Shown piece after piece: positions 1 to 19,616 of a stretch of DNA of 19,616 bases. Numbering within the stretch: the first letter of the stretch is position 1; each line of letters begins with the position of its first letter. Position numbers and translations under genes: made by a program. The notes under the pieces are model-generated. The model was not told where the DNA came from and did not search any database. It saw nothing but the letters and a program-made list of their open reading frames with translations. Source of the stretch: Oligoflexus sp. (GTDB taxonomy: Bacteria; Bdellovibrionota_B; Oligoflexia; Oligoflexales; Oligoflexaceae); assembly GCA_030151925.1 (NCBI GenBank), contig JASLCY010000213.1, positions 1 through 19,616 of the forward strand. The letters are read 5' to 3'.

Positions 1-816
1 CTCCGCCGGCGAACCGAACATATTGGAGATGCCGAAGTTGTCGATCGCTTCCTTGATCTTCCAGGGATCGACTTTCGCCGGCTGCGTGAAATCCATCTCG
101 GGGATCACGGCGGTCATGCCCAGCGCCGGCGCGAAGAGCGCGAAGAGCGGGAAGGTGCAGAGATCGCGTTCGCCCGCCTTGATCTGCAGGCTGCTTTCGA
201 GCAGCTTCACCTGCGCGAGGAAATTCCGCTGCGTGTAGACCGCGCCCTTCGGAGCGCCGGTGCTGCCGGAGGTGAAGAGGATCGCGGCGACATCATCGAG
301 TCGGCTCGCCTTCAGCTCGGGCGAGTCGTCGGCCTGAACGAGGAGCGAAGCATAGGAGCGTGTGCCGGGAAAGGTCCGGCTGCAGATGCTGATCTTGTGT
401 TTCCAGCCTTTATCCTGCCCGCGCCAGCGCAGGAGGACGCGCGCCGCATGCGCCGCGGGGATGCCGACGAAGGCTTCCGCTTTCGCTTCCGCCAGGCAGC
501 GTTTCATATTCTTGAGCCCGATGCCCGGATCGATCAGCACGGGGACCGCGCGCGCCTTGAAGAGGGCGAAGGTCATGATGAAGAATTCGAGCGACGGCGT
601 CACCATGAAGGCGGTGCGCAGGCCGTCGGTGATTCCGAGTTTGACCAGGTTCTTCGCCACGGTCTCGCTGATCGCATCGAGCTGGGCATAGGTGAGATGC
701 TGATAGGCGGTGCGGCCCGCGGCATCGCGTGAGGTCGGCATGATCACGGCTTCCTGGAAGGGGCGTTCGGAAGCTCGAAGGGTCAGGTAGCGGGCGATAT
801 TCGTGATGCTGGCCAT
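1..816 (-). CDS. oleC: OleC, beta-lactone synthetase (AMP-ligase family), C-terminus cut by window edge
   Basis: The first 272 codons read without a stop from an ATG at 816 to the left edge of the window. The product belongs to the acyl-adenylate-forming family. The phosphate-binding loop TSGSTGAPKG lies at residues 182-191, and is followed by the OleC-like segments TFPLFALFAPALGMT (about 225-239) and VIPEMDF (242-248). From family knowledge, OleC uses ATP to turn the 2-alkyl-3-hydroxy acid made by OleA and OleD into a cis-beta-lactone, which OleB decarboxylates. The start overlaps the oleB stop by one base (TGATG), which suggests translational coupling. The adenylation core and the C-terminal lid domain are off the window. 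Alone, this fragment could be taken for an ordinary acyl-CoA synthetase; the flanking oleB and oleA genes and the PLFALF segment favour OleC. Confidence 0.9.
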   Translation of the reverse strand, partial: MASITNIARYLTLRASERPFQEAVIMPTSRDAAGRTAYQHLTYAQLDAISETVAKNLVKLGITDGLRTAFMVTPSLEFFIMTFALFKARAVPVLIDPGIGLKNMKRCLAEAKAEAFVGIPAAHAARVLLRWRGQDKGWKHKISICSRTFPGTRSYASLLVQADDSPELKASRLDDVAAILFTSGSTGAPKGAVYTQRNFLAQVKLLESSLQIKAGERDLCTFPLFALFAPALGMTAVIPEMDFTQPAKVDPWKIKEAIDNFGISNMFGSPAE

Positions 817-1730
817 CAGTGCGGCGCCTGCTGCGAGAGGGGATGCCGTTTGAGGAAGTCCTTCACCAGGTCGATCGCCTCGTCGCCGAGTTCTTCCAGG
901 ATATAGTGCCCGGCGTCCGGATAACTGTGGATCTCCGCATCGGGGCGGCGTTTGCGCCACTCGGTGAGGAAGTGGTGGTCGAAGATGAAATCCTGTTCGC
1001 CCCAGATGATCATCAGGGGGACCTTATCCAGCGTCTTGAGATTCTCATCGGTGAATTTCACCGCGGCCCACGACGGCTCGCGCGGCCCGAGCGGAATATC
1101 CTGCACGAAACGATGAACCGCGCGGCGCGACCGCCAGTCGCTGTAAGGCGCGCGATAAGCGCGGCGCAGGGTCTGGGACAGCGGCTTGCGTTTGCACGCC
1201 ACGTAGCTCGCGGTCAGGGCGAAGGCGTTGAAGCCGCGCAGGAGGACGTCGCCCACGACCGGCGTGCGGCTCAGGTGCAGCGCGAACGGGAAGGGTTTGT
1301 CCTTGGGCAGCGGGAAGCCCGCCGTGTTCATCAGCACGATGCGTTTGATGAGCTGCGGGTTGCGGCACGCGAAGTTGAGGCCGATCATGCCGCCCCAATC
1401 GTGGAGGACGAGCGTGATATCCTTGAGGCCGAGCGTCCGCACGAGCGTTTCGATATCGGCCACGCGCTGCTCGAGCCTGTAGCTGTAGTGCGCGTCGTCG
1501 GGTTTATCCGAGAGGCCGCAGCCCACGTGGTCGGGCACGATCACCCGATAGCTATTGCGGAGGCGGCCGACGAGATTCCGGTAATAGAACGACCAAGTGG
1601 GATTGCCGTGCAGCGCGAGCACGACTTCGCCCTGGCCTTCGTCGAGGTAATGCATGCGCGCCTTGGATTCCGGCAAGGCGAGATAGGCTCCCTGGAAGGG
1701 ATAGAGTTTTTCACTGATGCCGAAGTTCAC
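816..1730 (-). CDS. oleB: OleB, beta-lactone decarboxylase (haloalkane-dehalogenase-like alpha/beta hydrolase)
   Basis: This 304-residue protein is an alpha/beta hydrolase of the haloalkane dehalogenase type. The oxyanion-hole motif HGNPTWSFYYR is at 41-51, the nucleophile-elbow Asp is D111 in LVLHDWGG, an acidic residue lies in GEQDFIFD (D247 or D251), and the catalytic His is H275 in DAGHYILEE. In the ole pathway this enzyme opens and decarboxylates the cis-beta-lactone made by OleC, giving a cis internal alkene. The start is a GTG at 1730 that overlaps the oleA TAG stop by one base; an AGGA at 1738-1741 (minus strand) serves as ribosome binding site. Alone it could pass for a true haloalkane dehalogenase, but its place between oleA and oleC makes OleB far more likely. 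Confidence 0.92.
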   Translation of the reverse strand: MNFGISEKLYPFQGAYLALPESKARMHYLDEGQGEVVLALHGNPTWSFYYRNLVGRLRNSYRVIVPDHVGCGLSDKPDDAHYSYRLEQRVADIETLVRTLGLKDITLVLHDWGGMIGLNFACRNPQLIKRIVLMNTAGFPLPKDKPFPFALHLSRTPVVGDVLLRGFNAFALTASYVACKRKPLSQTLRRAYRAPYSDWRSRRAVHRFVQDIPLGPREPSWAAVKFTDENLKTLDKVPLMIIWGEQDFIFDHHFLTEWRKRRPDAEIHSYPDAGHYILEELGDEAIDLVKDFLKRHPLSQQAPH

Positions 1731-2767
1731 TATTCCAGTCCTAATATGAGGCAGTTGAGGTTGCTGTCGATGCCGAGCCAGCCGACCTGATCGTTTTGCT
1801 GCAAAAAGCCCTTTTCGTCGGCGATCGCCGCGGTGAGAGGCAGGGAGACGGTTCCCATGTTGCCGAGGTAGGAGAAGGTCATGTAATCCTTCGCCTCTTC
1901 GATGCCGAGAGCGTTCAGCACGGTTTTCCTATGGGTTTGGCCGACCTGGTGCGAAATGATCTTATCGACCTTATCGTGCCGCCAGCCCAGCTCGAGCAGC
2001 AGCGCCTGCCAGGTCTTGAGGCCCAGCGCCACGCCGTGCTTCATCACGTTGATGGCGTCGGTGATCATGAATTGCTCGAAGACCGCCTGCCGTAATTTCT
2101 GGAAGCCCCAGCGGCAGAGATCATGCTGCGTAATATCGTTACGCACGACGCCGCCGAGCAGCTTGTGCGAACGGCCGAGCGTCGGATCGTTGCTCAGCAC
2201 CACGGCGACGGCGCCGGAGCCGCCGGTGAAGGTCGCGACGCTGTCGCGGAGGATATCCATCCCGGGGTTCTTGAGCAGTTTCTGCAGCGTGTCTTCGTTG
2301 ATGTCGCGCGACGATTCGCACGAGACGATCATACCGACTTTGGCCTGCCCGAGGGCGATGCGATTGGCGACTTCGATCATGCCGTTCAACACGCCGACGC
2401 AGGCGTTGCTGAGATCGTACATCGTCGCGTCCGGGCTCAGGCCGAGCTCCGACGCAATTCGACAGGCTGTAGCCGGTTCTTGGTAATCACGACACACGCC
2501 GGCGTAGATCAGGACATCAACGTCATTTCCGCTGAGATTCAGCGCCTTAAGAGCTTTGCGGCCCGCAGCGATCGCGCCGTCGCTCACCTTGAAGTGACGC
2601 GGCCACCAGCGGCGTTCTTTGATACCGGTCAAGGCTTCCAGTTGTCCCGAAGGAATACGGAGAGCTTGGTACACAGGCTTTAGAGCGTCCTCGATCGCAG
2701 CGGTGCTCACCGCCTCGTAAGGAAGTTCGTAAGTCAAGGCGTTCACGTAAACGTTTTGATAGCGCAT
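1730..2767 (-). CDS. oleA: OleA, head-to-head acyl condensing thiolase (ketoacyl synthase III-like)
   Basis: This 345-residue thiolase-fold enzyme carries the full OleA active site: nucleophilic C123 in DLSNACVG, E97 in YQEPATA (the glutamate that acts as general base in characterised OleA), H273 in ISHQVG and N303 in LGNMGTVSLP. OleA condenses two long acyl thioesters without decarboxylation to a 2-alkyl-3-keto acid, the committing step of long-chain olefin synthesis. The Glu and the ole neighbourhood separate it from the FabH ketoacyl synthases. It is the first gene of the minus-strand operon and is transcribed away from pfaD. The ATG at 2767 has no strong Shine-Dalgarno sequence. I found no convincing promoter for it in the divergent intergenic region. 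The next gene overlaps it by one base. Confidence 0.93.
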   Translation of the reverse strand: MRYQNVYVNALTYELPYEAVSTAAIEDALKPVYQALRIPSGQLEALTGIKERRWWPRHFKVSDGAIAAGRKALKALNLSGNDVDVLIYAGVCRDYQEPATACRIASELGLSPDATMYDLSNACVGVLNGMIEVANRIALGQAKVGMIVSCESSRDINEDTLQKLLKNPGMDILRDSVATFTGGSGAVAVVLSNDPTLGRSHKLLGGVVRNDITQHDLCRWGFQKLRQAVFEQFMITDAINVMKHGVALGLKTWQALLLELGWRHDKVDKIISHQVGQTHRKTVLNALGIEEAKDYMTFSYLGNMGTVSLPLTAAIADEKGFLQQNDQVGWLGIDSNLNCLILGLE

Positions 2768-2974
2768 TGAGGCCCATATATGAAATTGCTAGGTCGCTGA
2801 GACTTCCAGCCCAGATGACGCTTGTCAGAGGTGCGGCTAGGCGGGAATGTTAGCAAGCCCCGATGTTTGCTGCTAGCTAAAAAAGGACAGTCCTTATAAG
2901 CTCGAACCGGTCCTCAGACAAGGAACCCCACATCCGCGTAGGACGGAGCCCAGGCCATTGAACCGGAGAGAGCG
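2768..2974. promoter_or_regulatory. Divergent intergenic control region between the ole and pfa operons
   Basis: These 207 nt separate the starts of oleA (minus) and pfaD (plus), so promoters for both operons should lie here. The middle part (about 2845-2900) is more AT-rich than its surroundings. It contains a TATAAG box at 2895-2900, a 13-nt palindrome at 2883-2895 and the weaker inverted pair AGCAA/TTGCT (2852-2856, 2867-2871). A leader of about 70 nt would precede pfaD, whose ATG has a clear GGAGAG at 2965-2970. I see no complete sigma-70 promoter for oleA. A shared control region would allow the two operons to be regulated together; this is inferred from layout only. Confidence 0.6.
2883..2900 (+). 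promoter_or_regulatory. Candidate operator palindrome overlapping a -10-like box of pfaD
   Basis: AAGGACAGTCCTT at 2883-2895 is a perfect inverted repeat with 6-nt arms and one central base. It runs directly into TATAAG at 2895-2900, a five-of-six match to the -10 consensus. A regulator bound there would cover the spacer and the -10 region, as many repressors and MerR-type activators do. The matching -35 is poor (TGCTAG at 2871-2876, 18 nt away), so the promoter call is weak. Confidence 0.35.
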
Positions 2975-4501
2975 ATGAGCGTTCTGCAAGTGCAGGCGGA
3001 AACCCTATTAACCCTTCACCACGAAATCGACTTCCACGCCGTCGAAGGCCAACGCATCTTCGCGCCTCGCGTGAACCTCGCCGATTGGGGCGACAGGGCT
3101 TTCGCGCGAACGCACGGCCTGCGTTTCAACGTGATGGCGGGATCGATGGCGCACGGCATCTCGAGCGTCGAGCTCGTGAAGACGATGGCGCGGGAAGGCC
3201 TGCTCGCCTCCTTCGGTGCGGCGGGGCTGAATCTCGCCGCGGTGGAAGACGCGATCGCCGTGCTCAGGCGTGATCTCGACGGTTTGCCTTTCGCGGTGAA
3301 CTTTATCCATACGCCGCAGGAACCGCAGATCGAAGAACGGCTCTGCGACCTGCTCCTCGCGAAGGACGTCCACCTGGTCGAAGCCTCGGCTTTCATGCGC
3401 CTCTCGAAACCCCTCGTGCGTTATCGCGTGAAGGGCCTGCGCCTCGGCGCCGACGGCGAAGTGATCGAACGGCACCGCATCATCGCGAAGGTCTCGCGCG
3501 TCGAGCTCGCGAGGATGTTCTGGGCGCCCGCGCCGCTCGCGATCCTGGACGAGCTGCTCGGCGAAGGCGCGATCACCCGCGAAGAGCATACGCTCGCGCA
3601 GCGCCTTCCGCTCGCGCAGGATCTGACGGCCGAAGCGGATTCGGGCGGGCATACCGATAATCGCCCGCTGGTGACGCTGCTGCCGCAGATGCTGCTGTTG
3701 AAGAGCGAGATGGAAGCGGCGCACGGTTATCGCGAAGCCTTGCGCGTCGGCGCCGCCGGCGGCATCGCGACCCCGCATGCGGCGCTCGCGGCCTTCAGCA
3801 TGGGCGCTTCGTATATCGTCACCGGCACCGTGAATCAGGCCTGCCTCGAATCCGGCACGAGCGACGAGGTCCGCAGGATGCTCAGCGAGACCGGGCAGAG
3901 CGATCTGATCATGGCGCCGGCCGCGGATATGTTCGAGATGGGCGTGAAGCTGCAGGTGCTGAAGCGCGGGACGATGTTCCCGATGCGCGCGCAGAAGCTC
4001 TACGAGCTCTACCGGCAGCATCCCGACCTCGGCAGCCTCCCGGAGAAGGACCGCAAGACGCTCGAGGAGACCTTCTTCCGCATGCCGCTGGAAGAGGCCT
4101 GGCAGAGCACGAAACGCTTCTTCGAAGAACGCGATCCGACGCAGATCGCCCTCGCCGAGAAGAATCCTAAACATAAGATGGCGCTCGTCTTCCGCAGTTA
4201 TCTCGGCCAGTCCTCGCACTGGGCGAACCGCGGCGTGGGCGATCGCAAGATCGATTACCAGGTCTGGTGCGGACCGGCGATGGCGGCCTTCAACGACTGG
4301 GCGAAGGGTTCCGCGCTGGAGCCCGTGCAAGGCCGCAGGGCCGGGCTCGTGAACCTCAATATCCTCTATGGTTCAGCCGTCCTGCAAAGGCTTCGCCTGC
4401 TCGCGCAGCAGGGCGTGCGGGATCGTGAGTGGGAGAGGCTCACGAAGCCGCTCGACGAGGCGACTTTGCGTTATCATCTCGAAGCAGGGAGACACGGATG
4501 A
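2975..4501 (+). CDS. pfaD: PfaD-type FMN enoyl reductase of the PUFA synthase
   Basis: This 508-residue TIM-barrel flavoprotein belongs to the PfaD branch of the nitropropane-dioxygenase-like enoyl reductases. Visible marks are the barrel start VMAGSMAHGISS (53-64), the active-site/flavin region EADSGGHTDNR (220-230), the phosphate-binding strand RVGAAGGIATP (257-267), VTGTVNQACLESGTS (282-296), and the PfaD-type tail with DMFEMGVKLQVLKRGTMFP (318-336). In PUFA synthases it reduces the trans-2-enoyl-ACP intermediate in those cycles that need a saturated bond; omitting this step leaves double bonds. The ATG has GGAGAG four bases upstream. It seems to lack the longer N-terminal leader of marine PfaD proteins. 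Its TGA overlaps the pfaA ATG (ATGA), so the two subunits are probably made together. Confidence 0.93.
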   Translation: MSVLQVQAETLLTLHHEIDFHAVEGQRIFAPRVNLADWGDRAFARTHGLRFNVMAGSMAHGISSVELVKTMAREGLLASFGAAGLNLAAVEDAIAVLRRDLDGLPFAVNFIHTPQEPQIEERLCDLLLAKDVHLVEASAFMRLSKPLVRYRVKGLRLGADGEVIERHRIIAKVSRVELARMFWAPAPLAILDELLGEGAITREEHTLAQRLPLAQDLTAEADSGGHTDNRPLVTLLPQMLLLKSEMEAAHGYREALRVGAAGGIATPHAALAAFSMGASYIVTGTVNQACLESGTSDEVRRMLSETGQSDLIMAPAADMFEMGVKLQVLKRGTMFPMRAQKLYELYRQHPDLGSLPEKDRKTLEETFFRMPLEEAWQSTKRFFEERDPTQIALAEKNPKHKMALVFRSYLGQSSHWANRGVGDRKIDYQVWCGPAMAAFNDWAKGSALEPVQGRRAGLVNLNILYGSAVLQRLRLLAQQGVRDREWERLTKPLDEATLRYHLEAGRHG

Positions 4502-7500
4502 CTCAGCAATCGACCGACACGCAGGGCGAACGCAAAGGTATGGCGCTCGCCGTGGTCGGCGTGGGATGCATGTTTCCCGACGCTGCGAACCTCAAGGAAT
4601 ACTGGGCGAATATCGTCCAGGGCAAAGATTCCATCGGCCCCGTTCCCGTCAGCCACTGGCGTCCGGACGATTATTTCGATGCCGATCCCAAGCGCCCCGA
4701 TCACACCTATGGCCGCACGGGCGGATTCCTGAAACCCTATGCGTTCGATCCGCTGCAGTTCGGCATCGCGCCCCATGCGATCGAAGCCACCGACGCCACG
4801 CAACTGCTCGGCATGGTCTGCGCGCACGAAGCCCTGGTCGACGCCGGCTACGGGCCGGGCCGCGAATTCAATCGGGAACGCACCTCCTGCATCCTGGGCG
4901 TGACGGGAACGCTCGAGCTCGTCATTCCGCTCGGCGCTCGTCTCGGACATCCGCATTGGAAAAGAGCGCTTAAAAAAGCCGGCGTCGCCGACGACGTCGC
5001 GGCCGAGGTGATGGCGGAGATAGCCGATTCCTACGTGCCTTGGCAGGAAAACTCCTTCCCCGGCCTGCTCGGCAACGTGGTGGCGGGACGGATCGCGAGC
5101 CGCCTCGATCTCGGCGGCAGCAACGCCGTGGTGGATGCCGCGTGCGCAAGTTCCCTCGCGGCGCTGCATATGGCGGCGATGGAACTCGAATCCGGTCGCT
5201 CGGATATGGTCATCACCGGCGGCATGGATACGTTCAACGATATCTTCATGTATATGTGCTTCAGCAAAACGCCCGCGCTGTCCAAGGCCGGGCATGCGCG
5301 GCCCTTCGATGCGGAGGGGGACGGGACGATACTCGGCGAAGGCCTCGGGGCGGTGATACTCAAGCGCCTCGAAGACGCCGAGCGCGACGGCGACCGCATC
5401 TATGCGGTGGTTCGCGGAGTCGGCTCGGGCAGCGACGGCAAGGGCCAGGCGATCTATGCGCCGGCGGCGAAGGGCCAGGTGAAGGCGCTCAGCCGCGCGT
5501 ATGCGATAGCCGGCGTGCCGACCGAAACCATCGGCGTCCTGGAAGCGCACGGCACGGGCACCAAGGTCGGCGACGGCGTGGAGCTCGATGCTCTGGCCGA
5601 GGTCTACGGCGAATCCTCGCGTAAATCCAGCGTCATCGGCTCGGTGAAATCGCAGATCGGCCACACCAAGGCCGCGGCGGGCGTCGCGGGGCTCATCAAA
5701 TGCGTGATGGCGCTTCATCATAAGATCCAGCCTCCGACTTTGAAGGTCTCCGCCCTGCATCCGCGGCTCGCGGCGACGCCTTTCAAAGTGCTGGATAAAG
5801 CGCGGCCTTGGATACCCGAAGGGGATTTCCCGCGGCGGGCCGGCGTCAGCGCCTTCGGTTTCGGCGGCAGCAACTATCACTGCGTGCTCGAGGAATATAA
5901 AGCGGACGACAAACCCGTGAACTGGCGCGACGAGGATTATCTCTTCGCCTGGTCCGCAGGCGATAAAGAGGCGCTGGGCGCTGCGGTTCAGGCGACGATC
6001 GCCTCGATCGCCGGGCTGGAGAATGCGGCCGTGCAGATCCTCGCGCGGCAGACGCGTCGGGCTTTTGATCGTGAGGCCGCGGCGAGGCTTACGGTCTGGG
6101 CCGGGTCGTTCGAAGAGCTGCAAAAACGTTTGGCCGCGGCCCAGGAACTGCTCGCACAGGGCGGTGAATCAGCGTCGGGCGTGAGTTACCAGCAGGGCGC
6201 TGCGCGGTCTGATCTGGGGCTGATTTTTGCGGGCCAGGGCTCGCAGGCGCCCGGTATGCTGCGCGATCTGATGCTCGATTTCCCGGAAGCCCTGGAACCC
6301 TTAAAGGCGGCTGCGGACGTTTTGCGTCAGGCGGAGCCGGATGGACCGGCGCTGATGGATTTGATCTATCCGCCGCAGGCTTTCGGCGATGAAAAAGCCC
6401 AGCAGCAGAAAGCGCTGACGGCGACGCGATACGCTCAGCTGGCTTTGGGCGCCGTGGGAGCCGCGGTGCTGGCTATCCTCGATCGTTTTAAAGTAAAGGC
6501 CGCGCAGGTCGCCGGACATTCCTACGGTGAACTGCTCGCGCTTTATGCGGCCGGAGTGCTGAAGCTCGAGGATATGCTGAAGGCTTCCTATCAACGCGGC
6601 CGCCTGATGGAAGAGGTCGGGCGTGAGGGCGGCGGGATGCTGGCGGTGATGGCTTCCGCGGAAATCGTGGAAAAGATCCTCGTTCAGGAAAGCTTCGAAG
6701 CGCGCATCGCCAACTATAACGCGCCCGAGCAGGTCGTGGTCGGCGGCTCGACCTTGGAGCTCGAACGCCTGCAGAACCTGCTTAGATCGCAGCGCGTCAC
6801 CAGCAAGAAACTCGAGGTCGCAACCGCGTTTCATACTCCTTATGTGAGCGACGCGGCTCAGAAATTCGCGGCCTGGCTCAGGGAATTCGTGAGCCTCGAG
6901 GCGGCGAAGATTCCTGTTTTCAGCAACCAGCTCGCGGCTTCTTATCCAGAGGCGGCGGATGAAAAGAACGCGGCGCTGAGCGAGCAGCTGGGTTCGCCCG
7001 TACGTTTTGAAGCGATGCTGAGAGCGATGCGCGAGGCGGCTCCGGCTCAATGGGTCGAAGTCGGACCAGGGCGTAAGCTGCTCGGTCTGCTGAAGGCCGT
7101 CCAGCCCGAAGCGCTCTCGCTCGACAGCGAAAACACCGGCAGCACCCGCGGTCTGCTGGCTCTGATCGCCGAACTCGCCGCGCGCGGCGTGCCTCTCGAT
7201 CTCAAGGCTTGGCATCCGGGCGCGGAAGAGCTGCCGGCCGCGAAGAAGAAGACCTTTACCGTGACCTTAACCGGCGCGAACTATAGAGCCGAACGCAGTC
7301 CGAAGCCGGCTGAGGCTGTTCAGGCGGGCGCGAAGAGCGCCGTAGCAGCGAGTGCCACGGCTTCGCATGCAGCCACTAAATCTCCGCGCTCAGCTGATAT
7401 CGCGGCGGCCGAGGCTCCGCGTGCAGCTGGTCTCACGGCGGCCGCTGGAACTGCGGCCCAACCAGCAGCAACCGCGCCTCGGACGGTTGCCAAGACGTCA

Positions 7501-10500
7501 TCGATTTCGACTTCATCGACACCAAAGAGTGAGGAATCCATGCCCCCGAAGACGAGCCAAGAGTGGTCGCAGCTAGAAAGCCTTCTGCAGAGCATGCAAG
7601 AGGCCCAGAAGAAGACGACCGATGCCCACACTCTGTTCCTCGAAAACCAGCGCCAATTCCAGCAGATTCTGCGTGAAGCGCTGCTCGGTGGCTCGCCCGC
7701 GCAATGGAACACCACGGCTCAACCGGCGTCCGCTGCCAATAACACGGCTTCGCACGCCGCGCCCGCGTCGGCATTCCATAACGCGGCTTCGCACGCCGCG
7801 CCCGCGTCGGTATTCCATAACGCGGCTTCGCACGCCGCGGCTCCCGCATCTCTCGCCCAGCCAGCGTCCGCATACACGGCTTCGCACGCGGCACCCGCAC
7901 AGCCGGCTCACCAGAAGCCCGCGGATGCGGCCCCATCACACCCAACCGCGACTCAACCCGCGAACTCGTTTTTCGCTCCCGCTCGTTCTGCTGCTCAGGC
8001 AGCTTCGCCTGCGGCCGCCGCAGCGCAATCCGCTCCGGCGAATACCCAGGAGATTTTGAAAATCGTCAGCGATGCGACCGGATTCCCAGTCGAAATGCTG
8101 AACGGCGACATGCATCTCGAGAGCGATCTCGGCATCGATTCGATCAAAAAGGTCGAGATCTTCTCGCAAGTGCAGGCAGCGCATCCCGGCCTGCAAGCCG
8201 ATGCATCCCGCATGAAAGAAACGCAGACGATCGCCGATCTCTTCGCCTACGTCCAAAGCCACGATACCGCGTCCGCACCCAAAGCCGCCGCCTCGAAAGA
8301 AGCGGAAGCGACGGAAGACCGGCAAGGCGCCTGGTCGGCGAGCCCCGTGGCCTTCGTCTCGACCCGCACGCAGGATTCCGCCGAGATCCGCACCAAAGTC
8401 CTGACGGTCATCAGCGAAAAAACCGGCTTCCCGACGGACATGCTCCAGGACGAGATGGATCTGGAAGCGGACCTCGGCGTCGATTCCATTAAAAAAGTGG
8501 AGATCGTCTCGAGCCTGCAGGAGCAGTTCCCCGGCGTGCCTTTCGCCGCCAACGCGCTGGCTGAGATCCATCGCATCGCCGATATCCTCGCGCATCTGCA
8601 AGGCGGCGAGGAAAGCGCTCGCACGCCCCAGGGCGCAACCCTGCATTCCGTTCCTGACGACGCTCCGCTGGGCGATGAGTACGCCCGCGAAATCCTCTGG
8701 GACGTGATAGCCGAGAAAACCGGCTACCCGGCGGAAGTGCTCACGCCTTCGATGGATCTCGAGAGCGATCTCGGCATCGATTCGATCAAACGCGTCGAGA
8801 TCGTGGCGGCCCTCACGGAGAAGTTGCCGAGGCTCAAGGAGCAGCCGATCACCGAGGTCAGGACGCTCGAAGACCTGCTGCATCTCCTGAAGGGGCCGGC
8901 GCCCCTGCCGAACGAAGAAGGCCTCGCCGCGAGCCTGCTTCATCCTGAGACCTTCGACTGGGATCTCAGCGCAAAAAAAAAATCTCCCGAACCAGAGCCT
9001 GAGGCGCTCGTCCCGGAGGTAAAACCCTCTTCGGCCCACGTCTCGTGCTGGAAGCTCAAAGCCGTGCCCTGGGCGCCAGGGCACGAACGTTACGAACTCA
9101 AGGCGCAGGGCGAGATCTGGATCGTCGACGACGGCAGCAACCTCGCCCGCAACCTCATGCTGCGTTTGCAGGAACGCGGCTGCAATCCCAAGCTCGTCTC
9201 GCAGACCAGCGCGGAGCGCCTGACGATTCCCGATCATCTGCAGGGCCTGTTCCTGATCTCGCCGGTGCGCTTCGACCAGCTCCCGCTCCGTTGGCTGCAA
9301 AATGCCTATAAACTATTGCGCCGCTGCGCGGAGCCTCTTCTGGCCAACGAAGGTTTCGTCGTCACGATCAGCCGCCACGGCGGTCAGTTCGGGCTCGACG
9401 GACTCAACAATATCCAGCAGGTTTATGCCGGCGGCGCCGCGGCTTTCGTCAAAACCATCGCTCACGAATGGCCTGGCGTGCACGTCCGGGCGATCGATAT
9501 GGGCAAGGACTTCACCGACAGCGTGGAGGCCGTCCACCGCTGCATCGAAGGCTCCTTCCTCAAAGGTCCCGTCGAACTCGGGGTCGCACGCGAACGTTAT
9601 TATACCCTGAAGCTCGAGACCGAGGCCTTCGCCGACGAGGAGCCGACCAAGGCCCTGCAATCGGGCGACACAGTCCTCGTCACGGGCGGCGCGCGCGGCG
9701 TGACCGCGGCGACCCTGATCGCGCTCGCGAAGCGTTATCCCGTGCGTTTCGTGATCTGGGGCCGTACGGCCCTCGAAGCGGCGGAAGGCCCCGAGACCAG
9801 GGACCTCACCGATGCCGCCGCGATCAAAAAACAGCTGCTCTTCAATCATCCCGAGCTCGCGCATCCGCGCGACCTCGAAAAAGCCTATAAAAACCTGCTG
9901 TCGCAGCGCGAGCTGCAATCGACCTTCGCCGCCCTCCGCAGCTACGGTGCGGAAGTCGTCTACGAGGTCGTCGACGTCAGCCGCGAAGCCGACGTCCGTC
10001 GGGCCGTGGCGAGCCTTGAGGAACGTTACCGGACCATCGCCGGCGTGATCCACGGCGCCGGCGTGATCCGCGATAAACTGATCGTCGATCAGAACGAAGA
10101 GGAGCTGGCGGACGTGCTCGATACGAAGCTGCGTATCCTGCCTTCGCTCGAGGCCCTCGCGCAAAAGGGCACGAAGTGGATGGTGTTCTTCTCTTCGTCG
10201 ACCGCGCGTCTCGGACGGAAAGGGCAAGGCGCCTACGGCCTCGCGAACGAGGTGCTGAACCGCATGGCCGCTTATATCAGCTCGCAGTATCCCTGCCGGG
10301 CCCTGTCTCTGAACTGGGGGCCTTGGGACGGCGGCATGGTGAATGACGGCCTCAAGAAACTCTTCGCCAGCGAAGGCCTCGGCACTATCCCCCTGGCGAG
10401 CGGCGCTGCCGTGCAGACCTTCCTGCTCGAGCATGCGAGTCGCGGCAGCGGTGAGTGGCTGGTGCTCGGCGAAGGCGGGGAGGAGATCCTCAAAGGCCTT

Positions 10501-11346
10501 ATCATCAATCCGGAAGCGATACTCGAGAAGAGGCTCCTCTCCCTCTCGACGACTCCTATCCTGATCGATCACGTGATCAAAAACCGCGCCGTGGTCCCCG
10601 CGGCGTTGATAGCGGAATGGTTGAGCGCCGCGGCTGAGCCGCTCTTCCCGGGGCTCGTCCTGCAGGAGATCGGCGCGTTCCAAGTCTGGAAAGGGCTGGT
10701 GCTCGACGTCGGAACCGAGATTCCGCTCGAGATCGTCCTGAGCAACCAAAGCACGGACAGCGCGGAATGCATACTGCGCAGCCGCACCGCGGAAGGCCAG
10801 ATCAGGCTGCACGCCCATGCGAAACTCACGTTCGCGCCCGCGAAAGCCCAGGGCGCGGCGCAGGCTATCCCCGAGGATCACGACCTCGCGATCAAGCTCT
10901 ATCCCGATCTGCTGTTCCACGGCGAGACCTTGCACCTGCTCGATCACGTCATCGAGCAGGATGAACGGCATCTGCTGGTGAAGCTCGATCCGCGCGGCTC
11001 GCCCCAGGATTGGGACGAAGCGCTGGTAGCGTGGCGAGCCGAGGCGCCTTTGCTCGATGCGGTCTTCCAGGCGGCGATCGTCTGGTCGCGTCTCGAGAAG
11101 AAGATCCCCTGCCTCCCGAGCAAGTTCGCAGCCGCGCGTTACTACGAAGGCGCAGGCGCTCCGCCCGCTTATCTCGAACTCACGCTGACCGGCGGCGGCG
11201 ATCATCGCCTCGTCGCGGACGCCGTGATCCGGGATGCGCAAGGCCACGCGATCCTGCGTGTGGAAGGGTTTGAAGCCACCCTCGACGCTTCGTTGAGCGA
11301 GGCCTTCGCGGGCCGCGATTTGTTCGGCCAGGATGCTGGCCTCTGA
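4498..11346 (+). CDS. pfaA: PfaA-type PUFA synthase subunit (KS-MAT-ACP-ACP-ACP-KR-DH)
   Basis: This 2282-residue multidomain synthase subunit has a ketosynthase at about 14-465 (C216 in DAACASS, H351 in EAHGTGT, H389 in GHTKAAAG) and a malonyl-CoA acyltransferase at about 570-905 (GQGSQ, S675 in GHSYGE, H779). An Ala/Pro-rich linker (about 906-1185) leads to three acyl carrier domains with phosphopantetheine serines S1215, S1330 and S1429 in LG(I/V)DSIK. Next come a ketoreductase at about 1515-2010 (VTGGARG near 1728, S1900, Y1913) and a PKS-type dehydratase at about 2015-2265 (H2025, D2187). The domain order is that of PfaA/Pfa2. It builds chains from malonyl units together with PfaC and PfaD. 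I chose the ATG at 4498: it has AGGGAG upstream and overlaps the pfaD stop by 4 nt, while an ATG at 4429 would lie well inside pfaD. The three ACPs are few compared with marine EPA/DHA synthases, which commonly have four to nine. Confidence 0.95.
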   Translation: MTQQSTDTQGERKGMALAVVGVGCMFPDAANLKEYWANIVQGKDSIGPVPVSHWRPDDYFDADPKRPDHTYGRTGGFLKPYAFDPLQFGIAPHAIEATDATQLLGMVCAHEALVDAGYGPGREFNRERTSCILGVTGTLELVIPLGARLGHPHWKRALKKAGVADDVAAEVMAEIADSYVPWQENSFPGLLGNVVAGRIASRLDLGGSNAVVDAACASSLAALHMAAMELESGRSDMVITGGMDTFNDIFMYMCFSKTPALSKAGHARPFDAEGDGTILGEGLGAVILKRLEDAERDGDRIYAVVRGVGSGSDGKGQAIYAPAAKGQVKALSRAYAIAGVPTETIGVLEAHGTGTKVGDGVELDALAEVYGESSRKSSVIGSVKSQIGHTKAAAGVAGLIKCVMALHHKIQPPTLKVSALHPRLAATPFKVLDKARPWIPEGDFPRRAGVSAFGFGGSNYHCVLEEYKADDKPVNWRDEDYLFAWSAGDKEALGAAVQATIASIAGLENAAVQILARQTRRAFDREAAARLTVWAGSFEELQKRLAAAQELLAQGGESASGVSYQQGAARSDLGLIFAGQGSQAPGMLRDLMLDFPEALEPLKAAADVLRQAEPDGPALMDLIYPPQAFGDEKAQQQKALTATRYAQLALGAVGAAVLAILDRFKVKAAQVAGHSYGELLALYAAGVLKLEDMLKASYQRGRLMEEVGREGGGMLAVMASAEIVEKILVQESFEARIANYNAPEQVVVGGSTLELERLQNLLRSQRVTSKKLEVATAFHTPYVSDAAQKFAAWLREFVSLEAAKIPVFSNQLAASYPEAADEKNAALSEQLGSPVRFEAMLRAMREAAPAQWVEVGPGRKLLGLLKAVQPEALSLDSENTGSTRGLLALIAELAARGVPLDLKAWHPGAEELPAAKKKTFTVTLTGANYRAERSPKPAEAVQAGAKSAVAASATASHAATKSPRSADIAAAEAPRAAGLTAAAGTAAQPAATAPRTVAKTSSISTSSTPKSEESMPPKTSQEWSQLESLLQSMQEAQKKTTDAHTLFLENQRQFQQILREALLGGSPAQWNTTAQPASAANNTASHAAPASAFHNAASHAAPASVFHNAASHAAAPASLAQPASAYTASHAAPAQPAHQKPADAAPSHPTATQPANSFFAPARSAAQAASPAAAAAQSAPANTQEILKIVSDATGFPVEMLNGDMHLESDLGIDSIKKVEIFSQVQAAHPGLQADASRMKETQTIADLFAYVQSHDTASAPKAAASKEAEATEDRQGAWSASPVAFVSTRTQDSAEIRTKVLTVISEKTGFPTDMLQDEMDLEADLGVDSIKKVEIVSSLQEQFPGVPFAANALAEIHRIADILAHLQGGEESARTPQGATLHSVPDDAPLGDEYAREILWDVIAEKTGYPAEVLTPSMDLESDLGIDSIKRVEIVAALTEKLPRLKEQPITEVRTLEDLLHLLKGPAPLPNEEGLAASLLHPETFDWDLSAKKKSPEPEPEALVPEVKPSSAHVSCWKLKAVPWAPGHERYELKAQGEIWIVDDGSNLARNLMLRLQERGCNPKLVSQTSAERLTIPDHLQGLFLISPVRFDQLPLRWLQNAYKLLRRCAEPLLANEGFVVTISRHGGQFGLDGLNNIQQVYAGGAAAFVKTIAHEWPGVHVRAIDMGKDFTDSVEAVHRCIEGSFLKGPVELGVARERYYTLKLETEAFADEEPTKALQSGDTVLVTGGARGVTAATLIALAKRYPVRFVIWGRTALEAAEGPETRDLTDAAAIKKQLLFNHPELAHPRDLEKAYKNLLSQRELQSTFAALRSYGAEVVYEVVDVSREADVRRAVASLEERYRTIAGVIHGAGVIRDKLIVDQNEEELADVLDTKLRILPSLEALAQKGTKWMVFFSSSTARLGRKGQGAYGLANEVLNRMAAYISSQYPCRALSLNWGPWDGGMVNDGLKKLFASEGLGTIPLASGAAVQTFLLEHASRGSGEWLVLGEGGEEILKGLIINPEAILEKRLLSLSTTPILIDHVIKNRAVVPAALIAEWLSAAAEPLFPGLVLQEIGAFQVWKGLVLDVGTEIPLEIVLSNQSTDSAECILRSRTAEGQIRLHAHAKLTFAPAKAQGAAQAIPEDHDLAIKLYPDLLFHGETLHLLDHVIEQDERHLLVKLDPRGSPQDWDEALVAWRAEAPLLDAVFQAAIVWSRLEKKIPCLPSKFAAARYYEGAGAPPAYLELTLTGGGDHRLVADAVIRDAQGHAILRVEGFEATLDASLSEAFAGRDLFGQDAGL
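7531..7542 (+). other. Internal Shine-Dalgarno plus in-frame ATG inside pfaA
   Basis: GAGGA at 7531-7535 sits four bases before an in-frame ATG at 7540 (Met1015 of PfaA). The residues that follow (MPPKTSQEW) read like a natural N-terminus and lead into a helical segment. An out-of-frame TGA at 7530-7532 lies just upstream, as at an old gene boundary. Use of this site would give a separate 3xACP-KR-DH protein. It may equally be chance or the scar of an ancient fusion. Confidence 0.3.
7741..7851 (+). repeat. 39-nt in-frame tandem repeat in the PfaA pre-ACP linker
   Basis: Two nearly identical 39-nt units (7741-7779 and 7780-7818) differ at two bases. A third, partial unit (7819-7851) carries a 3-nt insertion. 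Each encodes 13 residues of the pattern N(T/A)ASHAAPAS(A/V)FH. A further degenerate copy of TASHAAPA follows near 7876-7899. The unit is a multiple of three, so copy changes keep the frame. It lies in the flexible tether between MAT and ACP1. Confidence 0.9.
8114..8148 (+). repeat. 35-nt identity between ACP1 (8114-8148) and ACP3 (8756-8790)
   Basis: The DNA around the phosphopantetheine serine is identical over 35 nt in ACP1 (8114-8148) and ACP3 (8756-8790), covering LESDLGIDSIK, and matches again at the following GTCGAGATC. The middle domain ACP2 encodes nearly the same residues with different codons (LEADLGVDSIK). This points to recent duplication or gene conversion between the outer domains. 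Confidence 0.85.
8973..8982 (+). other. A10 homopolymer within pfaA between ACP3 and KR
   Basis: Ten consecutive A residues encode part of AKKK at about residues 1492-1495, in a GC-rich gene. A shift to the -1 frame meets TGA at 9000-9002; a shift to the +1 frame meets TAA at 9020-9022. Slippage there would therefore yield a KS-MAT-3xACP protein of about 1500 residues without KR and DH. Confidence 0.9.
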
Positions 11347-11359
11347 GAGTGGGAAGAGA

Positions 11360-14300
11360 ATGAAATCTATAGCGATCGTCAGTGCAGGCCTTAGGTTCCC
11401 CGGTGCGAAGAATCTTGATGCGTTCAAGGCTCTGCTCGAACAGGGCCTCGATATGTCCAGGCCGGTGGCCGAAGAACGATGGGCGGCTCGCGGCCGACGC
11501 GCGGCGAAGGAAGAGGGTTTTTTCCACGCCCGGGCCTATCGGCTCGAATCGTGGCATGAGACCGCGGAAGGCCTGCGCCTCTCGCAAGAGCAGATCGACA
11601 GTCTCGATCCGTTGTTCCATATCGGACTGGGCGCTGCGAAGGACGCTTTTTACAGCGCGAAGACGCAGGCCTTGGATCTTACGCGAGCCGGCGTCATACT
11701 CGGCAACATCGCCCTGCCGACCGAGACTTCGTCGCGCATGGCTTCGGCCTGGCTCAGCGAAAGCTGGGGGCTGGGCGAAAGTCCGGCGGCGCCTGCGAGC
11801 GCTAATCTTACTCCCGCGGCCTTGCCCGGCATCGTGATCGCCCAGGCCTTGGGGCTCGGCGGGACCACATTCACTCTGGATGCCGCCTGCGCTTCGACCC
11901 TTTATGCTTTGAAGCTGGCCTGCGACGAACTCATGGAAGGCCGGCTCGATTTTGTCCTCGCCGGCGGCCTCAGTCGGCCCGATCCGCTTTATACGCAGGT
12001 CGGCTTCACCGCGCTGGACGCACTCTCGCGGCAGGGGCGTTCCTATCCTCTCGACGGTCGCGCCGATGGCCTCATGGTCGGCGAGGGTGCGGGGATCTTC
12101 GGACTCAAACGGCTTGAGGATGCCGAGCGGCAAGGCGATAGGATCCTGGCCGTGGTTCGCGGCATAGGCCTTTCGAATGATCGTGAAGCGGGGCTCATGG
12201 CGCCTTCGCGCGAAGGGCAGGTGCGCGCTATGCGCGCCGCTTACCACGATGCCGAGTGGGATGCGCGTTCGGTGGAATGCGTGGAGTGCCACGCGACCGG
12301 CACGGCGCTGGGGGATGCGACGGAGATTCAGAGCCTGAGCGAGATTCGCGGCGGCGCCCCGGCGGTGATCGGCTCCGTGAAAAGCAACGTGGGGCATATG
12401 CTGACGGCCGCGGGCGCGGCTGGTGTGGCGAAGATACTGCTCGGCTTCCGCGAGAAGACGTACTGGCCCACGGCGAACTATCAATCGTCGCCCGAGAGTT
12501 GGGATCTCGAGCGTCGCGGCCTCAAGGTCCTCCATAAACCCGAGCCGTGGAATACGCGGCAGGAGTTGCGCCGGGCCGCGATCAGTGGTTTCGGTTTCGG
12601 TGGGATCAACGCCCATCTTCTGCTCGAGGAATATAACGCCGAGATCAGCGAGCGCCCCGTCCGCATTCGGCCGAGGAAAAAAGTTGCGGTCGTGCGCGCG
12701 GCGGATTATGCGGCGCAGGGCGACGTGGGCGAATTCGCGATCGGTTACACCGAGTTCCGCATTCCGCCCAAGGAGATGCAGGAGATCCTCCCGCAGCAGA
12801 TCGCGGCTCTTATGAGCCTGGCCGCGCTCGATCCCAAGGCGGCTTTCGATAAAGAAACCATGGGCTGTTTCGTGGGCGTGGAACTGGATCCGCTCACCAG
12901 CCTTTATGCGACGCGTTGGCAAATCCAGGATAGTTTGCCCGCGGCCGATCTCTCCGCCTATCATCCCGCGCTCGGAGCCAACCAGGTCATGGGTTCGCTG
13001 GCGAGCATCGCCGCGTCGCGGCTTTCGCGTGAGCTGGGTTTGGGTGGGGCGTCCTTCACGGTGGCTGCCGCGGAGGCTTCCGGGCTACGCGCGCTGGAGC
13101 TCGCCTCGCGAGCGATCGCGAGAGGGGAGATGACGTCCGCTCTGGTGATGGCGATCGATATGGGCACGAGCCATAGGGCGAAGGCGCAGCTCGCGGCGCG
13201 TTATGGTGGGCTTTGGTCCCAGGCTGCGGATGAGGCGGTCGCGCTGCTCTTGGTCGAAGAGCAGAAGGCCCGCGAACTGGGTTTGCCGATCGCGGTGATC
13301 CTCGACGACTTCGCGGAGTTCGCGAACGAACTCGATCTGCCTTTCGCCGAAGGTCCGCTGTGGATCGAAGATATCAAACGGGATGCGGCCTGGGTTCAGG
13401 CTTTGCCGCATAGTCAGAAGATTGTGGTGGACGAGCATCGTTACGGCGGCGCGGCCCACGGTCTCAAGGCTTTGCTGCATATCTGGGGCCATCAGAGTCA
13501 CTATCCCCTGCGCGCGAGTTTCCTCCTGCGCGATCACACGCATCATTTCGTGCACTGGTTGCAGGAACAGGCTTTGGATATTCGCACGCCCGGCGCTTCC
13601 CAAGGACAAAGTTATAAAGTCGCGCGGCGCGATAGGATTTTGCCGGGTTTATCCGAAGTGTTCGGCGGCCTTGCCGCCGCTCCGAACTCGGCGACAGCCA
13701 CCCAACCCGCTGCTGCGGCGCCGGCGGCAGCTATGTCCTCGTCCTCTGGTTTTCTCCATACGCTCGTTCAATCCGAACTCGCGACGATCGCGGCGCATGC
13801 GGAGTTCCTGCAATTCCGCAGCGAAGGCGATGCCTTGGTCGCCCAGCTTCTGAACGGCTCAGTCAGCGTTCCTCGCAGGGAGGCTGCGCAGCCAGCACCA
13901 GCCTCACCCGATCAAAAACCAAAAGCCTGGCGCTGGGTCCATGCCCCGCTCAATCCCAAGCCGCCCTTGCTCGACTACGCGGCGTGCACGGAATTCGCCG
14001 AAGGACTCATCAGCAAAGTCTTCGGGGAAGCCTTTGCCGAGGCCGATACCTATCCGCACCGCGTGCGGCTTCCATCCGAGCGACTCCTGCTCTGCCACCG
14101 CGTGATGTCCATCACCGGCGAGGCCAAGAGCCTGCAAAACGGCAAGATGACCACCGAGCACGACGTCTTCGCCGATGCGTGGTACCTCGAGGACGGCCAG
14201 ATGCCGACCAGCATCGCGGTTGAATCCGGGCAGGCGGACCTTATGCTGTCCGCTTATCTCGGCGCCGATTTCGCGACCAAAGGCCAAGCCGTCTATCGCC

Positions 14301-16327
14301 TGCTCGATGCGCGCGTGAGTTTCCACGGCGCCTTGCCTCGCGTGGGCGACACGATTCGCTACAATATCGAGGTGAAGCGTTTCTTCGAGCAGAACGGGAC
14401 GCTCTTCTTCAACTTCGCTTTCGAAGCCTTCCTCGGCGATCGGCCCCTGATGAGCATGGTCGACGGCTGCGCCGGCTTCTTCTCGGACGCAGCGCTGGCC
14501 GAAGGCCGCGGCGTTAAACGCAGCCAACTGCAGCTGCAGGGCGCCGCTCCGAAGATCACCGGCGGCTTCGAACCTTTCGTGCCGATGCAGCGCGAGAGTT
14601 ATAACGATCTTCAGCTCGACGCCCTCAGGCGCGGGGATTATGCTGCGTGTTTCGGCGAGGCTTTTGCCGGCCTCGCGCTGCGCGCTCCCAAAACGCTGCC
14701 CGGCGGCGATATGAAACTCGTGCATCGCATACTCGAGCTCGAGCCGCGCGGCGGGCGCTTCCAATGCGGGCGGATCGTCGGTGAAGCCGATATCGATCCC
14801 GAGGCGTGGTTCCTCACGTGCCACTTCGTGGACGATCAGGTCATGCCCGGCACGCTCATGTTCGAATGCTGCCTCCACACGCTGCGCGTGTATCTGATGC
14901 GCGCGGGCTGGGTCGGCGAACGCGATCAGCAGGACTTCATGCCGAAGCCCGGCCTCTGGTCGCAATTGAAGTGCCGGGGGCAGGTGCTGCCTTCGACCCG
15001 CAAAGTCACATATGAGATCGAGATCAAGGAGATCGGTTACGGCCCTGACGCCTACGTGATCTGCGATGCCTTGATGTATGCCGACGGCAAGCCTATCGTC
15101 GATATCACCGATATGAGCCTGCATGCGCCGGGTTTCACCAAGGCGACGTTCGCCTCGATCTGGTCGTCGCGCGTCGCGGCGAGCAAGGCCCCCGCGAGCC
15201 AAGCTCCAGCGAACAGCGCTGCGGCGAGCAAGGCCCCCGCGAGCCAAGCTCCAGCGAACAGCGCTGTATCAGTCGCGACGAGCCAAGCCCCTCTTTATAC
15301 CTACGACCACATCCTCGCGTTTTCAAACGGTAAACCGTCGGATTGTTTCGGCCCGGTCTATCGGCCTTTCGATCATCAAAGAAAGATCGCGCGCCTGCCG
15401 CGGCCGCCGTTCCAATTCCTCGATAGCGTGGAAACCGTCGACGGACCCTTCATGAAACAGCATGTCGGGACTCATCTCGTCGCTCATTACGAGCTGCCCG
15501 ATGACGCCTGGTTCTGGGCCGCGAACAACGATAGGCTGCCCTTCTCGGTGCTCGTGGAGATCGCCCTGCAGCCCTGCGGTTTCATGGCCGCCTATATGGG
15601 TTCGGCCTTGCAAAGCCCGCGCGACCTGAAGTTCCGCAACCTCTCAGGCGAAGCCGTCCAGTCCCTCGACGTCCGCAAGGGGCACGGGCGCCTCTCGATC
15701 GAAGTCGCCTCGACCAAGATCGCGCGCAGCGGGGATATGATCATCCAGGATTATAGATTCCGAGTCTACTCGGCGGCCGGCGATATCTATGTCGGCACTA
15801 CGAGCTTCGGTTTCTTTACGGACGAGGCGCTCGCCTCGCAGGCGGGTATCCGCGGAGCCGCGGCTTGGTCGGAGAGATCGATCGCGCAGCCTTATCCGGC
15901 TGCCAAGGCTCTGCCTCAGGATCCGCTCCGTATGGTCGATCGCTGGGAAACCGACGGCTCGAAGATCTACGGCGCGAAGAAGGTGAATCCCGAGGAGTGG
16001 TTCTTCGAGGCTCATTTCTTCGAAGATCCCGTCATGCCCGGTTCGCTCGGGCTCGAATCGCTCCTGCAGGTCCTCGAGGCGGAAGCGGACCGACGCTGGC
16101 CGGAGGAAAAGGCCTGGCGCGTCGCTCTCGGCACTCGCCACAACTGGATGTATCGCGGTCAGGTGAGAAAACACAACCAGGAGGTGCGCCTCGCCCTCGA
16201 TCTCGCCGAGCCAGCCGTCGCGCCTAGCGGCCACGGCCTCACGGCGAACGGCGTGCTCTACTGCGACGGCACCGCGATCTATACGCTGAACGACCTGAGC
16301 ATCGAAGCCTGCTCGGAGCGCGAATAG
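11360..16327 (+). CDS. pfaC: PfaC-type PUFA synthase subunit (KS-CLF-DH-DH)
   Basis: This 1655-residue subunit begins with an intact ketosynthase at about 2-430 (C177 in DAACAST, H311 in CHATGT, H346 in GHMLTAAG). A chain-length-factor domain follows at about 455-745; its Cys position is Glu (E572 in VAAAEASG) and the two His motifs are absent. After a linker (about 775-855) come two FabA-like double-hotdog dehydratases. DH1 (about 856-1270) has H1155 in CHFVDDQVMPG; DH2 (about 1310-1655) has H1552 in AHFFEDPVMPG. In PUFA synthases these domains set chain length and place the cis double bonds. No acyltransferase domain is present, unlike myxobacterial Pfa3. I prefer the ATG at 11360, with GGGAAG upstream and the KS fold starting at once; an ATG at 11333 would overlap pfaA by 14 nt and has a poorer binding site. 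The gene ends one base from the converging SPFH gene. Confidence 0.94.
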   Translation: MKSIAIVSAGLRFPGAKNLDAFKALLEQGLDMSRPVAEERWAARGRRAAKEEGFFHARAYRLESWHETAEGLRLSQEQIDSLDPLFHIGLGAAKDAFYSAKTQALDLTRAGVILGNIALPTETSSRMASAWLSESWGLGESPAAPASANLTPAALPGIVIAQALGLGGTTFTLDAACASTLYALKLACDELMEGRLDFVLAGGLSRPDPLYTQVGFTALDALSRQGRSYPLDGRADGLMVGEGAGIFGLKRLEDAERQGDRILAVVRGIGLSNDREAGLMAPSREGQVRAMRAAYHDAEWDARSVECVECHATGTALGDATEIQSLSEIRGGAPAVIGSVKSNVGHMLTAAGAAGVAKILLGFREKTYWPTANYQSSPESWDLERRGLKVLHKPEPWNTRQELRRAAISGFGFGGINAHLLLEEYNAEISERPVRIRPRKKVAVVRAADYAAQGDVGEFAIGYTEFRIPPKEMQEILPQQIAALMSLAALDPKAAFDKETMGCFVGVELDPLTSLYATRWQIQDSLPAADLSAYHPALGANQVMGSLASIAASRLSRELGLGGASFTVAAAEASGLRALELASRAIARGEMTSALVMAIDMGTSHRAKAQLAARYGGLWSQAADEAVALLLVEEQKARELGLPIAVILDDFAEFANELDLPFAEGPLWIEDIKRDAAWVQALPHSQKIVVDEHRYGGAAHGLKALLHIWGHQSHYPLRASFLLRDHTHHFVHWLQEQALDIRTPGASQGQSYKVARRDRILPGLSEVFGGLAAAPNSATATQPAAAAPAAAMSSSSGFLHTLVQSELATIAAHAEFLQFRSEGDALVAQLLNGSVSVPRREAAQPAPASPDQKPKAWRWVHAPLNPKPPLLDYAACTEFAEGLISKVFGEAFAEADTYPHRVRLPSERLLLCHRVMSITGEAKSLQNGKMTTEHDVFADAWYLEDGQMPTSIAVESGQADLMLSAYLGADFATKGQAVYRLLDARVSFHGALPRVGDTIRYNIEVKRFFEQNGTLFFNFAFEAFLGDRPLMSMVDGCAGFFSDAALAEGRGVKRSQLQLQGAAPKITGGFEPFVPMQRESYNDLQLDALRRGDYAACFGEAFAGLALRAPKTLPGGDMKLVHRILELEPRGGRFQCGRIVGEADIDPEAWFLTCHFVDDQVMPGTLMFECCLHTLRVYLMRAGWVGERDQQDFMPKPGLWSQLKCRGQVLPSTRKVTYEIEIKEIGYGPDAYVICDALMYADGKPIVDITDMSLHAPGFTKATFASIWSSRVAASKAPASQAPANSAAASKAPASQAPANSAVSVATSQAPLYTYDHILAFSNGKPSDCFGPVYRPFDHQRKIARLPRPPFQFLDSVETVDGPFMKQHVGTHLVAHYELPDDAWFWAANNDRLPFSVLVEIALQPCGFMAAYMGSALQSPRDLKFRNLSGEAVQSLDVRKGHGRLSIEVASTKIARSGDMIIQDYRFRVYSAAGDIYVGTTSFGFFTDEALASQAGIRGAAAWSERSIAQPYPAAKALPQDPLRMVDRWETDGSKIYGAKKVNPEEWFFEAHFFEDPVMPGSLGLESLLQVLEAEADRRWPEEKAWRVALGTRHNWMYRGQVRKHNQEVRLALDLAEPAVAPSGHGLTANGVLYCDGTAIYTLNDLSIEACSERE
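15179..15268 (+). repeat. 45-nt in-frame direct repeat in the PfaC inter-dehydratase linker
   Basis: Two adjacent 45-nt copies (15179-15223 and 15224-15268) differ only in the last codon (GCG versus GTA). Each encodes 15 residues, ASKAPASQAPANSA plus A or V. A shorter echo, TSQAP, follows. The repeat sits in the flexible Ala/Pro linker between DH1 and DH2, so loss or gain of a copy changes only linker length. Confidence 0.93.
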
Positions 16328-17324: not shown

Positions 17325-17398
17325 AAAGAACTCACTCCTTCTCCGCATCCTATCCGAGCGCCGGTCCCGGATTCAGGATTTATGGTGCGAAGTTTGTT

Positions 17399-17427
17399 AA
17401 TATAGGGGGCGGTATTATCCGGCTCAA
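17399..17427 (-). promoter_or_regulatory. Sigma-70-like promoter for the SPFH gene
   Basis: On the minus strand, TTGAGC (17427-17422) and TATATT (17404-17399) are separated by exactly 17 nt, giving four-of-six and five-of-six consensus matches. Transcription would begin near 17392, leaving a leader of about 68 nt before the ATG at 17324. The -35 box overlaps the stop codon of the small ORF at 17424-17570. Confidence 0.5.

Positions 17428-18414: not shown

Positions 18415-19616
<1,202 letters not shown>

Follow-up and report, generated by a model that had tools for sequence, protein, structure and literature searches.

A divergent pfa-ole locus in Oligoflexus with a PfaC that appears to have lost its PfaB-type acyltransferase

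We analyzed a 19,616-nucleotide stretch of an Oligoflexus sp. genome (assembly GCA_030151925.1, contig JASLCY010000213.1; the whole stretch is called the window below), in which genes of a Pfa-type polyunsaturated fatty acid (PUFA) synthase, pfaD-pfaA-pfaC, stand back to back with genes for head-to-head olefin synthesis, oleA-oleB-oleC. The two divergent operons probably make up one polyunsaturated-hydrocarbon pathway, with a synthase largely committed to OleA. The pfa-ole partnership is real and conserved; it is known in kind and new as a variant. What looks new in the Oligoflexales is the divergent layout, the missing terminal acyltransferase, a conserved intergenic element and a pfa-linked OleA clade of its own.

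Gene content of the locus

The ole set lies on the minus strand and the pfa set on the plus strand, 207 nt separating the start codons of oleA and pfaD, and neighbouring genes in each operon overlap or almost touch. Open reading frames (ORFs) and family matches bear out this layout, which had been proposed in the initial annotation; oleC is partial. The features are as follows.

1..819, minus strand: oleC (beta-lactone synthetase), N-terminal half, cut at the window edge (base 1); the probable ATG at 819 overlaps the oleB stop
816..1730, minus strand: oleB (alpha/beta hydrolase; beta-lactone decarboxylase by position), Abhydrolase_1, HDWGG at residues 110-114
1730..2767, minus strand: oleA (head-to-head condensing thiolase), NF006720 425.5 bits, cut-off 285
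2845..2903, no strand: conserved intergenic block of 59 nt between oleA and pfaD, possible shared control element
2975..4501, plus strand: pfaD (enoyl reductase), TIGR02814 598.9 bits, cut-off 449.25; solved relatives PfaD 4yx6 and 6lkc
about 4498..11346, plus strand: pfaA, TIGR02813 1429.6 bits, cut-off 1010.1; ATGA overlap with pfaD
about 4549-5748, plus strand: pfaA ketosynthase (KS)
6223-7068, plus strand: pfaA MAT
about 8050-8898, plus strand: three pfaA acyl carrier protein domains (ACPs), three DSIK motifs
9670-10329, plus strand: pfaA ketoreductase (KR)
10534-11280, plus strand: pfaA C-terminal dehydratase (DH)
11333 or 11360..16327, plus strand: pfaC, KS and FabA-like domains, 1664 aa, without acyltransferase (AT)
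about 11363-12481, plus strand: pfaC KS
about 12695-13642, plus strand: pfaC chain length factor (CLF), without the Cys
13640..13942, plus strand: pfaC Ala/Pro/Ser-rich stretch of about 110 residues between CLF and DH, without a GxSxG acyltransferase motif, in the place taken by the AT of relatives
about 13940-16324, plus strand: two pfaC FabA-type DH units

The domain order is KS-MAT-ACP-ACP-ACP-KR-DH in PfaA and KS-CLF-DH-DH in PfaC. With PfaD and PfaA above their cut-offs, tandem ACPs, a KR and a PfaC of this type, the set fits a Pfa-type synthase. The DH units of the window PfaC retain the HF...PG motifs, as in AT-bearing Geobacter-type relatives. Neither pfaB nor pfaE is present within the window. 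Matches to the ACPS family, at family level, were found elsewhere in all ten related genomes, and none in the window. No thioesterase or phosphopantetheinyl transferase (PPTase) was present in the window ORFs scanned or in seven ORFs on the ole side of a relative's locus (L174), the genomes of relatives not having been searched for a PfaT-type thioesterase.

On the ole side, residues C123, E97, H273 and N303 of OleA, which we take to be catalytic, line up with the solved OleA 3row, presumably that of Xanthomonas. The oleC half scored 297 bits against OlefBLtnSynXan and 275 bits against OlefBLtnSynShew over about 266 positions, the cut-offs of these olefin beta-lactone synthetase models (900 and 850) being set for whole proteins. 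The nearest NCBIfam models for OleB are haloalkane dehalogenases, under cut-off, and no specific model scores above its cut-off; the name rests on position and the HDWGG motif. The window contains no oleD; in both relatives examined (L174 and L178) this gene directly follows oleC.

Linkage across genomes

OleA neighbourhoods were collected with a 20-row OleA alignment against genome contigs, and pfa genes were located by tblastn with the window proteins. The counts refer to the best 80 of 567 confirmed stretches, picked by similarity to the window OleA and hence not a random sample. The closest named loci (OleA 67-81% identical) belong to Oligoflexus and Oligoflexaceae assemblies. In 46 of the 80 loci a pfaC-like stretch upstream of oleA, in the same orientation, ends no more than 2.2 kb from it, and four loci have a divergent pfaD (two Oligoflexus, one Oligoflexaceae, one Pseudobacteriovorax). 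The rest comprise one other pfa arrangement, three loci that are too short and 26 without pfa in the flank examined, namely six planctomycetes and 20 Shewanella/Psychromonas. None of these 20 Shewanella/Psychromonas loci has pfa within that flank, in agreement with the earlier remark that the two gene sets are not adjacent in Shewanella.

A sample of 58 genomes of the phylum was also considered. PfaD was above cut-off in eight and in pieces in two more (G004 and G010), ten in total, and OleA was above cut-off in 17 genomes. Six of the ten pfaD-bearing genomes (G001, G002, G004, G005, G034 and G035) carry the divergent pair on a single contig, in G035 with a 492-aa gene without Pfam match between ole and pfa. 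G003 probably has a seventh pair, because the genes stand at the ends of two contigs sharing the same few codons near the oleA start. G010 has pfaD and OleA on separate contigs, with OleA split in two, and in G040 no OleA reaches the cut-off. Restriction of the pair to one genome, which had been named as an outcome that would refute the proposal, is therefore not what is seen. Its recurrence in several genomes, though these share descent, goes beyond chance.

Several observations on gene neighbourhoods are reported for completeness. To the right of pfaC (window positions 16329-19571) lie an SPFH/SHOCT protein (minus strand), a VTT/DedA-like protein (plus strand) and a class II fumarase (minus strand), with no evident tie to the pathway. 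On the 3' side of pfaC in G001 (L175:4835-8977) and G002 (L176:2058-6231), three similarly sized genes are found on the opposite strand; in G001 they encode a membrane-like protein that matches no Pfam family, one resembling an FAD amine oxidase and one resembling a spermine synthase. The window has different genes at this place. In Candidatus Uabimicrobium amorphum (G007, L202) the ole genes sit inside the pfa set, in the order pfaA-pfaC-oleA-oleB-oleC-(336-aa gene)-pfaD on one strand. In the phylum of G062, pfaD was above cut-off in 16 of 198 genomes; this figure comes without a paired OleA count and was not used.

Trees and the conserved intergenic block

The window OleA and those of seven relatives (G001-G005, G034 and G035) form one clade (support 100, quick method), and eight other Oligoflexia OleAs, from G010 and from seven genomes without pfaD above cut-off, form a distant one. 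The OleAs of G023, G026 and G032 are on long branches, so their placement is unsure. The PfaA tree gives the same grouping (8 rows, support 95/91, quick method), and its inner pattern matches that of OleA: G005 with contig 9 of G035, G003 with G004, and the window with G001, G002 and G034. In the PfaC KS tree the window groups with G001, G002 and G004.

The block between oleA and pfaD is invariant at 54 of 59 positions among the window, G001, G002 and G034, versus 10 of 61 flanking columns in an ungapped frame. Its 35-nt core carries GGACAGTCC and CTTATAAG palindromes and is present as one exact copy between oleA and pfaD in each of G001, G002 and G034; it was not detected in the other seven genomes searched, up to three mismatches being allowed. 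G004 retains two words of the block at unchanged spacing, and none of the block words tried occurs in the oleA-pfaD gap of G005 or G003. Scans for a sigma-70-like promoter, a terminator and Rfam families were blank. We infer from this conservation that the ole and pfa operons are probably co-controlled from the element between them.

These results bear on one alternative, that the adjacency is merely inherited and the two pathways are independent. Every divergent case does fall in one OleA clade, and in G032 both gene sets are kept unlinked, about 0.85 Mb apart. However, linkage is kept between lineages whose OleAs are about 60% identical, same-strand pfa-ole linkage occurs independently in other phyla, and conservation in the intergenic block far exceeds that in the flanking sequence. 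We regard independence of the two pathways as highly improbable. Conserved linkage, the separate pfa-linked OleA clade, the agreement of the PfaA and OleA trees and the intergenic block all back the idea, put forward in the initial annotation, of a matched substrate supply.

Loss of the PfaB-type acyltransferase

To judge from the sequences compared, PfaC in the Oligoflexales lineage is characterized by loss of the ACYLTRANSFERASE, i.e. it has no PfaB-type AT. Eight PfaCs were compared from other genomes with ole genes; seven of these PfaCs adjoin oleA. All eight measure 2266-2385 aa and have the AT motif GYSLG (seven cases) or GQSLG (one case). A profile built on ten AT/PfaB segments (A3) gave no match (E<=10) in the 25 closest PfaCs, the window's among them, and exceeded 100 bits in 94 of the 95 next, among the 120 matches listed. 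An AlphaFold2 model of the CLF-linker region of PfaC was poor (mean pLDDT, the predicted local distance difference test score, 50.3), and no conclusion was taken from it.

The same profile was applied to whole genomes. The Shewanella and Psychromonas PfaB controls, both themselves rows of A3, scored 451 and 440 bits. No PfaB-type AT was found in G001, G002, G003, G004, G005 or G034 (best score at most 71 bits), assemblies that may be incomplete; the top scores in these six genomes fall on the MAT of PfaA-like proteins, on FabD or on polyketide synthase (PKS) ATs, and in G002 and G034 part of these matches belong to a second PfaA-like synthase. Pfam PF00698 had been considered as a stand-alone test and was dropped: it missed the Shewanella PfaB in G061 and so is unable to show PfaB absence, for which reason A3 was used instead.

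Other PfaC variants and synthases were met in these searches. P0199 (1836 aa) is the sole AT-less PfaC by A3 among the 95 next-closest, a possible second loss or split gene. P0010 and P0127 (a 299,474-base contig) are from Chitinophagaceae by one source label, while a contig of equal length bears the title Oligoflexus in L001, so that the labels conflict. A second PfaA-like synthase, with a further AT-bearing protein, occurs in G002 (C134, 2311 aa) and G034 (C1247, 2291 aa); the AT-bearing protein of G002 is 946 aa long and has a PPTase match as well. G035 has two pfa clusters: in that on contig 22 (L184), which is unlinked to ole, A3 detects an AT in PfaC at 199 bits; the ole-linked PfaC on contig 9 (L182/L183) is shortened, with 1258 aa and just one FabA-like stretch.

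Comparison with known systems

Adjacent or tandem pfa-ole genes are already in print: passages in PMC6463001, PMC3098273 and PMC4882568 describe them, including Photobacterium profundum SS9 and Geobacter bemidjiensis, and a 2011 survey calls the two gene sets "often linked", PMC3098273 giving ole together with Pfa-type synthases in 44 of 80 genomes. Adjacency was also frequent in our neighbourhood count. Novelty of the adjacency as such, which the initial annotation had thought possible, was thus rejected; its reading of genes, layout and substrate supply is supported, and the AT loss had escaped it. No description of the Oligoflexales locus was found in the literature searched; the active Oligoflexia OleA named in PMC7064751 is that of Halobacteriovorax marinus.

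G. bemidjiensis, of Type I in the scheme of Shulse and Allen, is like the window in having pfaD first, then pfaA and pfaC, with ole adjoining and with similar OleA and DH motifs. Its tandem order is given in part of PMC4882568 as pfaD, A, B, C, oleA, B, C, D, pfaE, and its product as C31H46 in a passage of PMC3098273, the C31:9 polyene of PMC4882568 in the portion concerned. There the ole genes follow on the same strand and an AT is present; the window has divergent ole genes and neither this AT nor a pfaE. Type I is defined by a pfaBC fusion of KS-CLF-AT-DH2 and the window has no AT; Type L has pfaBC of KS-CLF-DH2-AT, and here again the window, with pfaD at the 5' end, lacks the AT.

The pfaABCDE and oleABCD genes of Shewanella and Photobacterium provide the same enzyme set, with an OleA that uses Pfa-made chains, as we suppose for the window, but they include a separate PfaB gene which the window lacks. 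P. profundum SS9 shares adjacent operons with the window; there a thioesterase gene (orf6/pfaT) lies between the operons and the polyene was not detected, whereas the window is without such a gene. Myxobacterial pfa1-2-3 (Type L, Aetherobacter) likewise has three genes with the pfaD homologue first, but pfa3 bears an AT and a C-terminal AGPAT domain, according to a section of PMC4882568, and neither was found in the window.

Proposed pathway and alternatives

PfaA, PfaC and PfaD would make an ACP-bound polyunsaturated chain out of malonyl units. OleA would unload two such chains, perhaps directly from ACP, and condense them head to head, after which OleC, OleB and OleD (encoded outside the window) would convert the condensed product to a very long polyene olefin. 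How long the chains are and how many double bonds they contain is not readable from sequence. A precedent is Shewanella, where OleA joins Pfa-made chains, most likely as acyl-ACP; the authors base this, in the relevant passage of PMC6463001, on two findings, namely that an E. coli fadD mutant makes the ketone and that eicosapentaenoic acid (EPA) falls just as far when OleA is inactive. A portion of PMC12895367 presents PfaB as a terminal acyltransferase and as what determines the PUFA product. As the PfaB-type AT, normal deliverer of the finished fatty acid, is lost, the output of the synthase probably goes largely to OleA or another dedicated acceptor and not to phospholipids.

Another possibility is that the synthase chiefly makes ordinary membrane PUFA and OleA diverts only a part of the output, as happens in Shewanella, the chains being released by the PfaA MAT, FabD, the AT of another synthase or an unlinked thioesterase. 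One Shewanella synthase does yield both products, as stated in part of PMC6463001, G002 and G034 have another AT elsewhere, and the O. tunisiensis subclade described below has an AT-less PfaC with no OleA among the matches listed. Against it stand the lack of a PfaB-type AT in the six linked genomes by A3 and the behaviour of the Moritella synthase, which without PfaB gave no longer-chain PUFA peaks in E. coli (a passage of PMC12895367). Moreover, C16:1w5c and C16:0 make up >93% of the cellular fatty acids of the O. tunisiensis type strain (PMC4179278), which gives no sign of membrane PUFA; the word "hydrocarbon" is absent from that paper. We consider a chiefly membrane-directed synthase unlikely.

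The synthase might instead make another secondary lipid, one that is no PUFA and might have few or no double bonds, that OleA joins to an unusual hydrocarbon, ketone or beta-lactone. Pfa-like synthases elsewhere do give heterocyst glycolipid chains and phenolic lipids, as noted in a section of PMC3098273; the shortened ole-linked PfaC of G035, with its one FabA-like stretch, and the window OleB without a specific model above cut-off also fit. This seems to us quite unlikely, as PfaA is above the TIGR02813 cut-off and the window PfaC retains two FabA-type DH units with their motifs.

Several observations weigh against a synthase committed to OleA. The further AT of G002 and G034 (about 52-57 bits with A3), which belongs to the second, ole-unlinked synthase, could act in trans. 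AT-bearing synthases are ole-linked too, so that AT loss is not required for the partnership, and the gene sets of G032 are, as said, far apart. The PfaC KS tree leaves G005 and contig 9 of G035 outside on long branches; this disagreement may be long-branch trouble. Finally, the AT-less PfaC family divides into three subclades (quick tree). Taking contigs of equal size as identical, OleA is listed on the same contig for 10 of the 15 non-window members of two of them and for none of the nine members of the O. tunisiensis subclade. No OleA was found on the 7,569,109-base contig of O. tunisiensis among the best 120 of 4,748 matches to the window OleA, nor among the best 120 of 7,914 to a profile of nine other Oligoflexia OleAs, a negative limited to the matches listed. 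Because this subclade is AT-less without a listed OleA, the AT may have been lost before any commitment to Ole, or separately from it.

Shared commitment of the two operons to one hydrocarbon pathway nevertheless remains our preferred reading. A bolder version, which we offer tentatively and hold to be doubtful, is that the Oligoflexales have a hydrocarbon-only synthase in which OleA itself would off-load the carrier domains of PfaA under one shared intergenic switch, the O. tunisiensis branch having lost OleA and using another acceptor.

Significance

The model in which OleA unloads the synthase was proposed for Shewanella in 2019 (in a passage of PMC6463001). A natural family of PfaB-less synthases, beside OleA in many members, makes such unloading directly testable. 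The locus also adds the Oligoflexales to the groups with a pfa-ole partnership, and it would be a compact set of genes for making very long polyenes.

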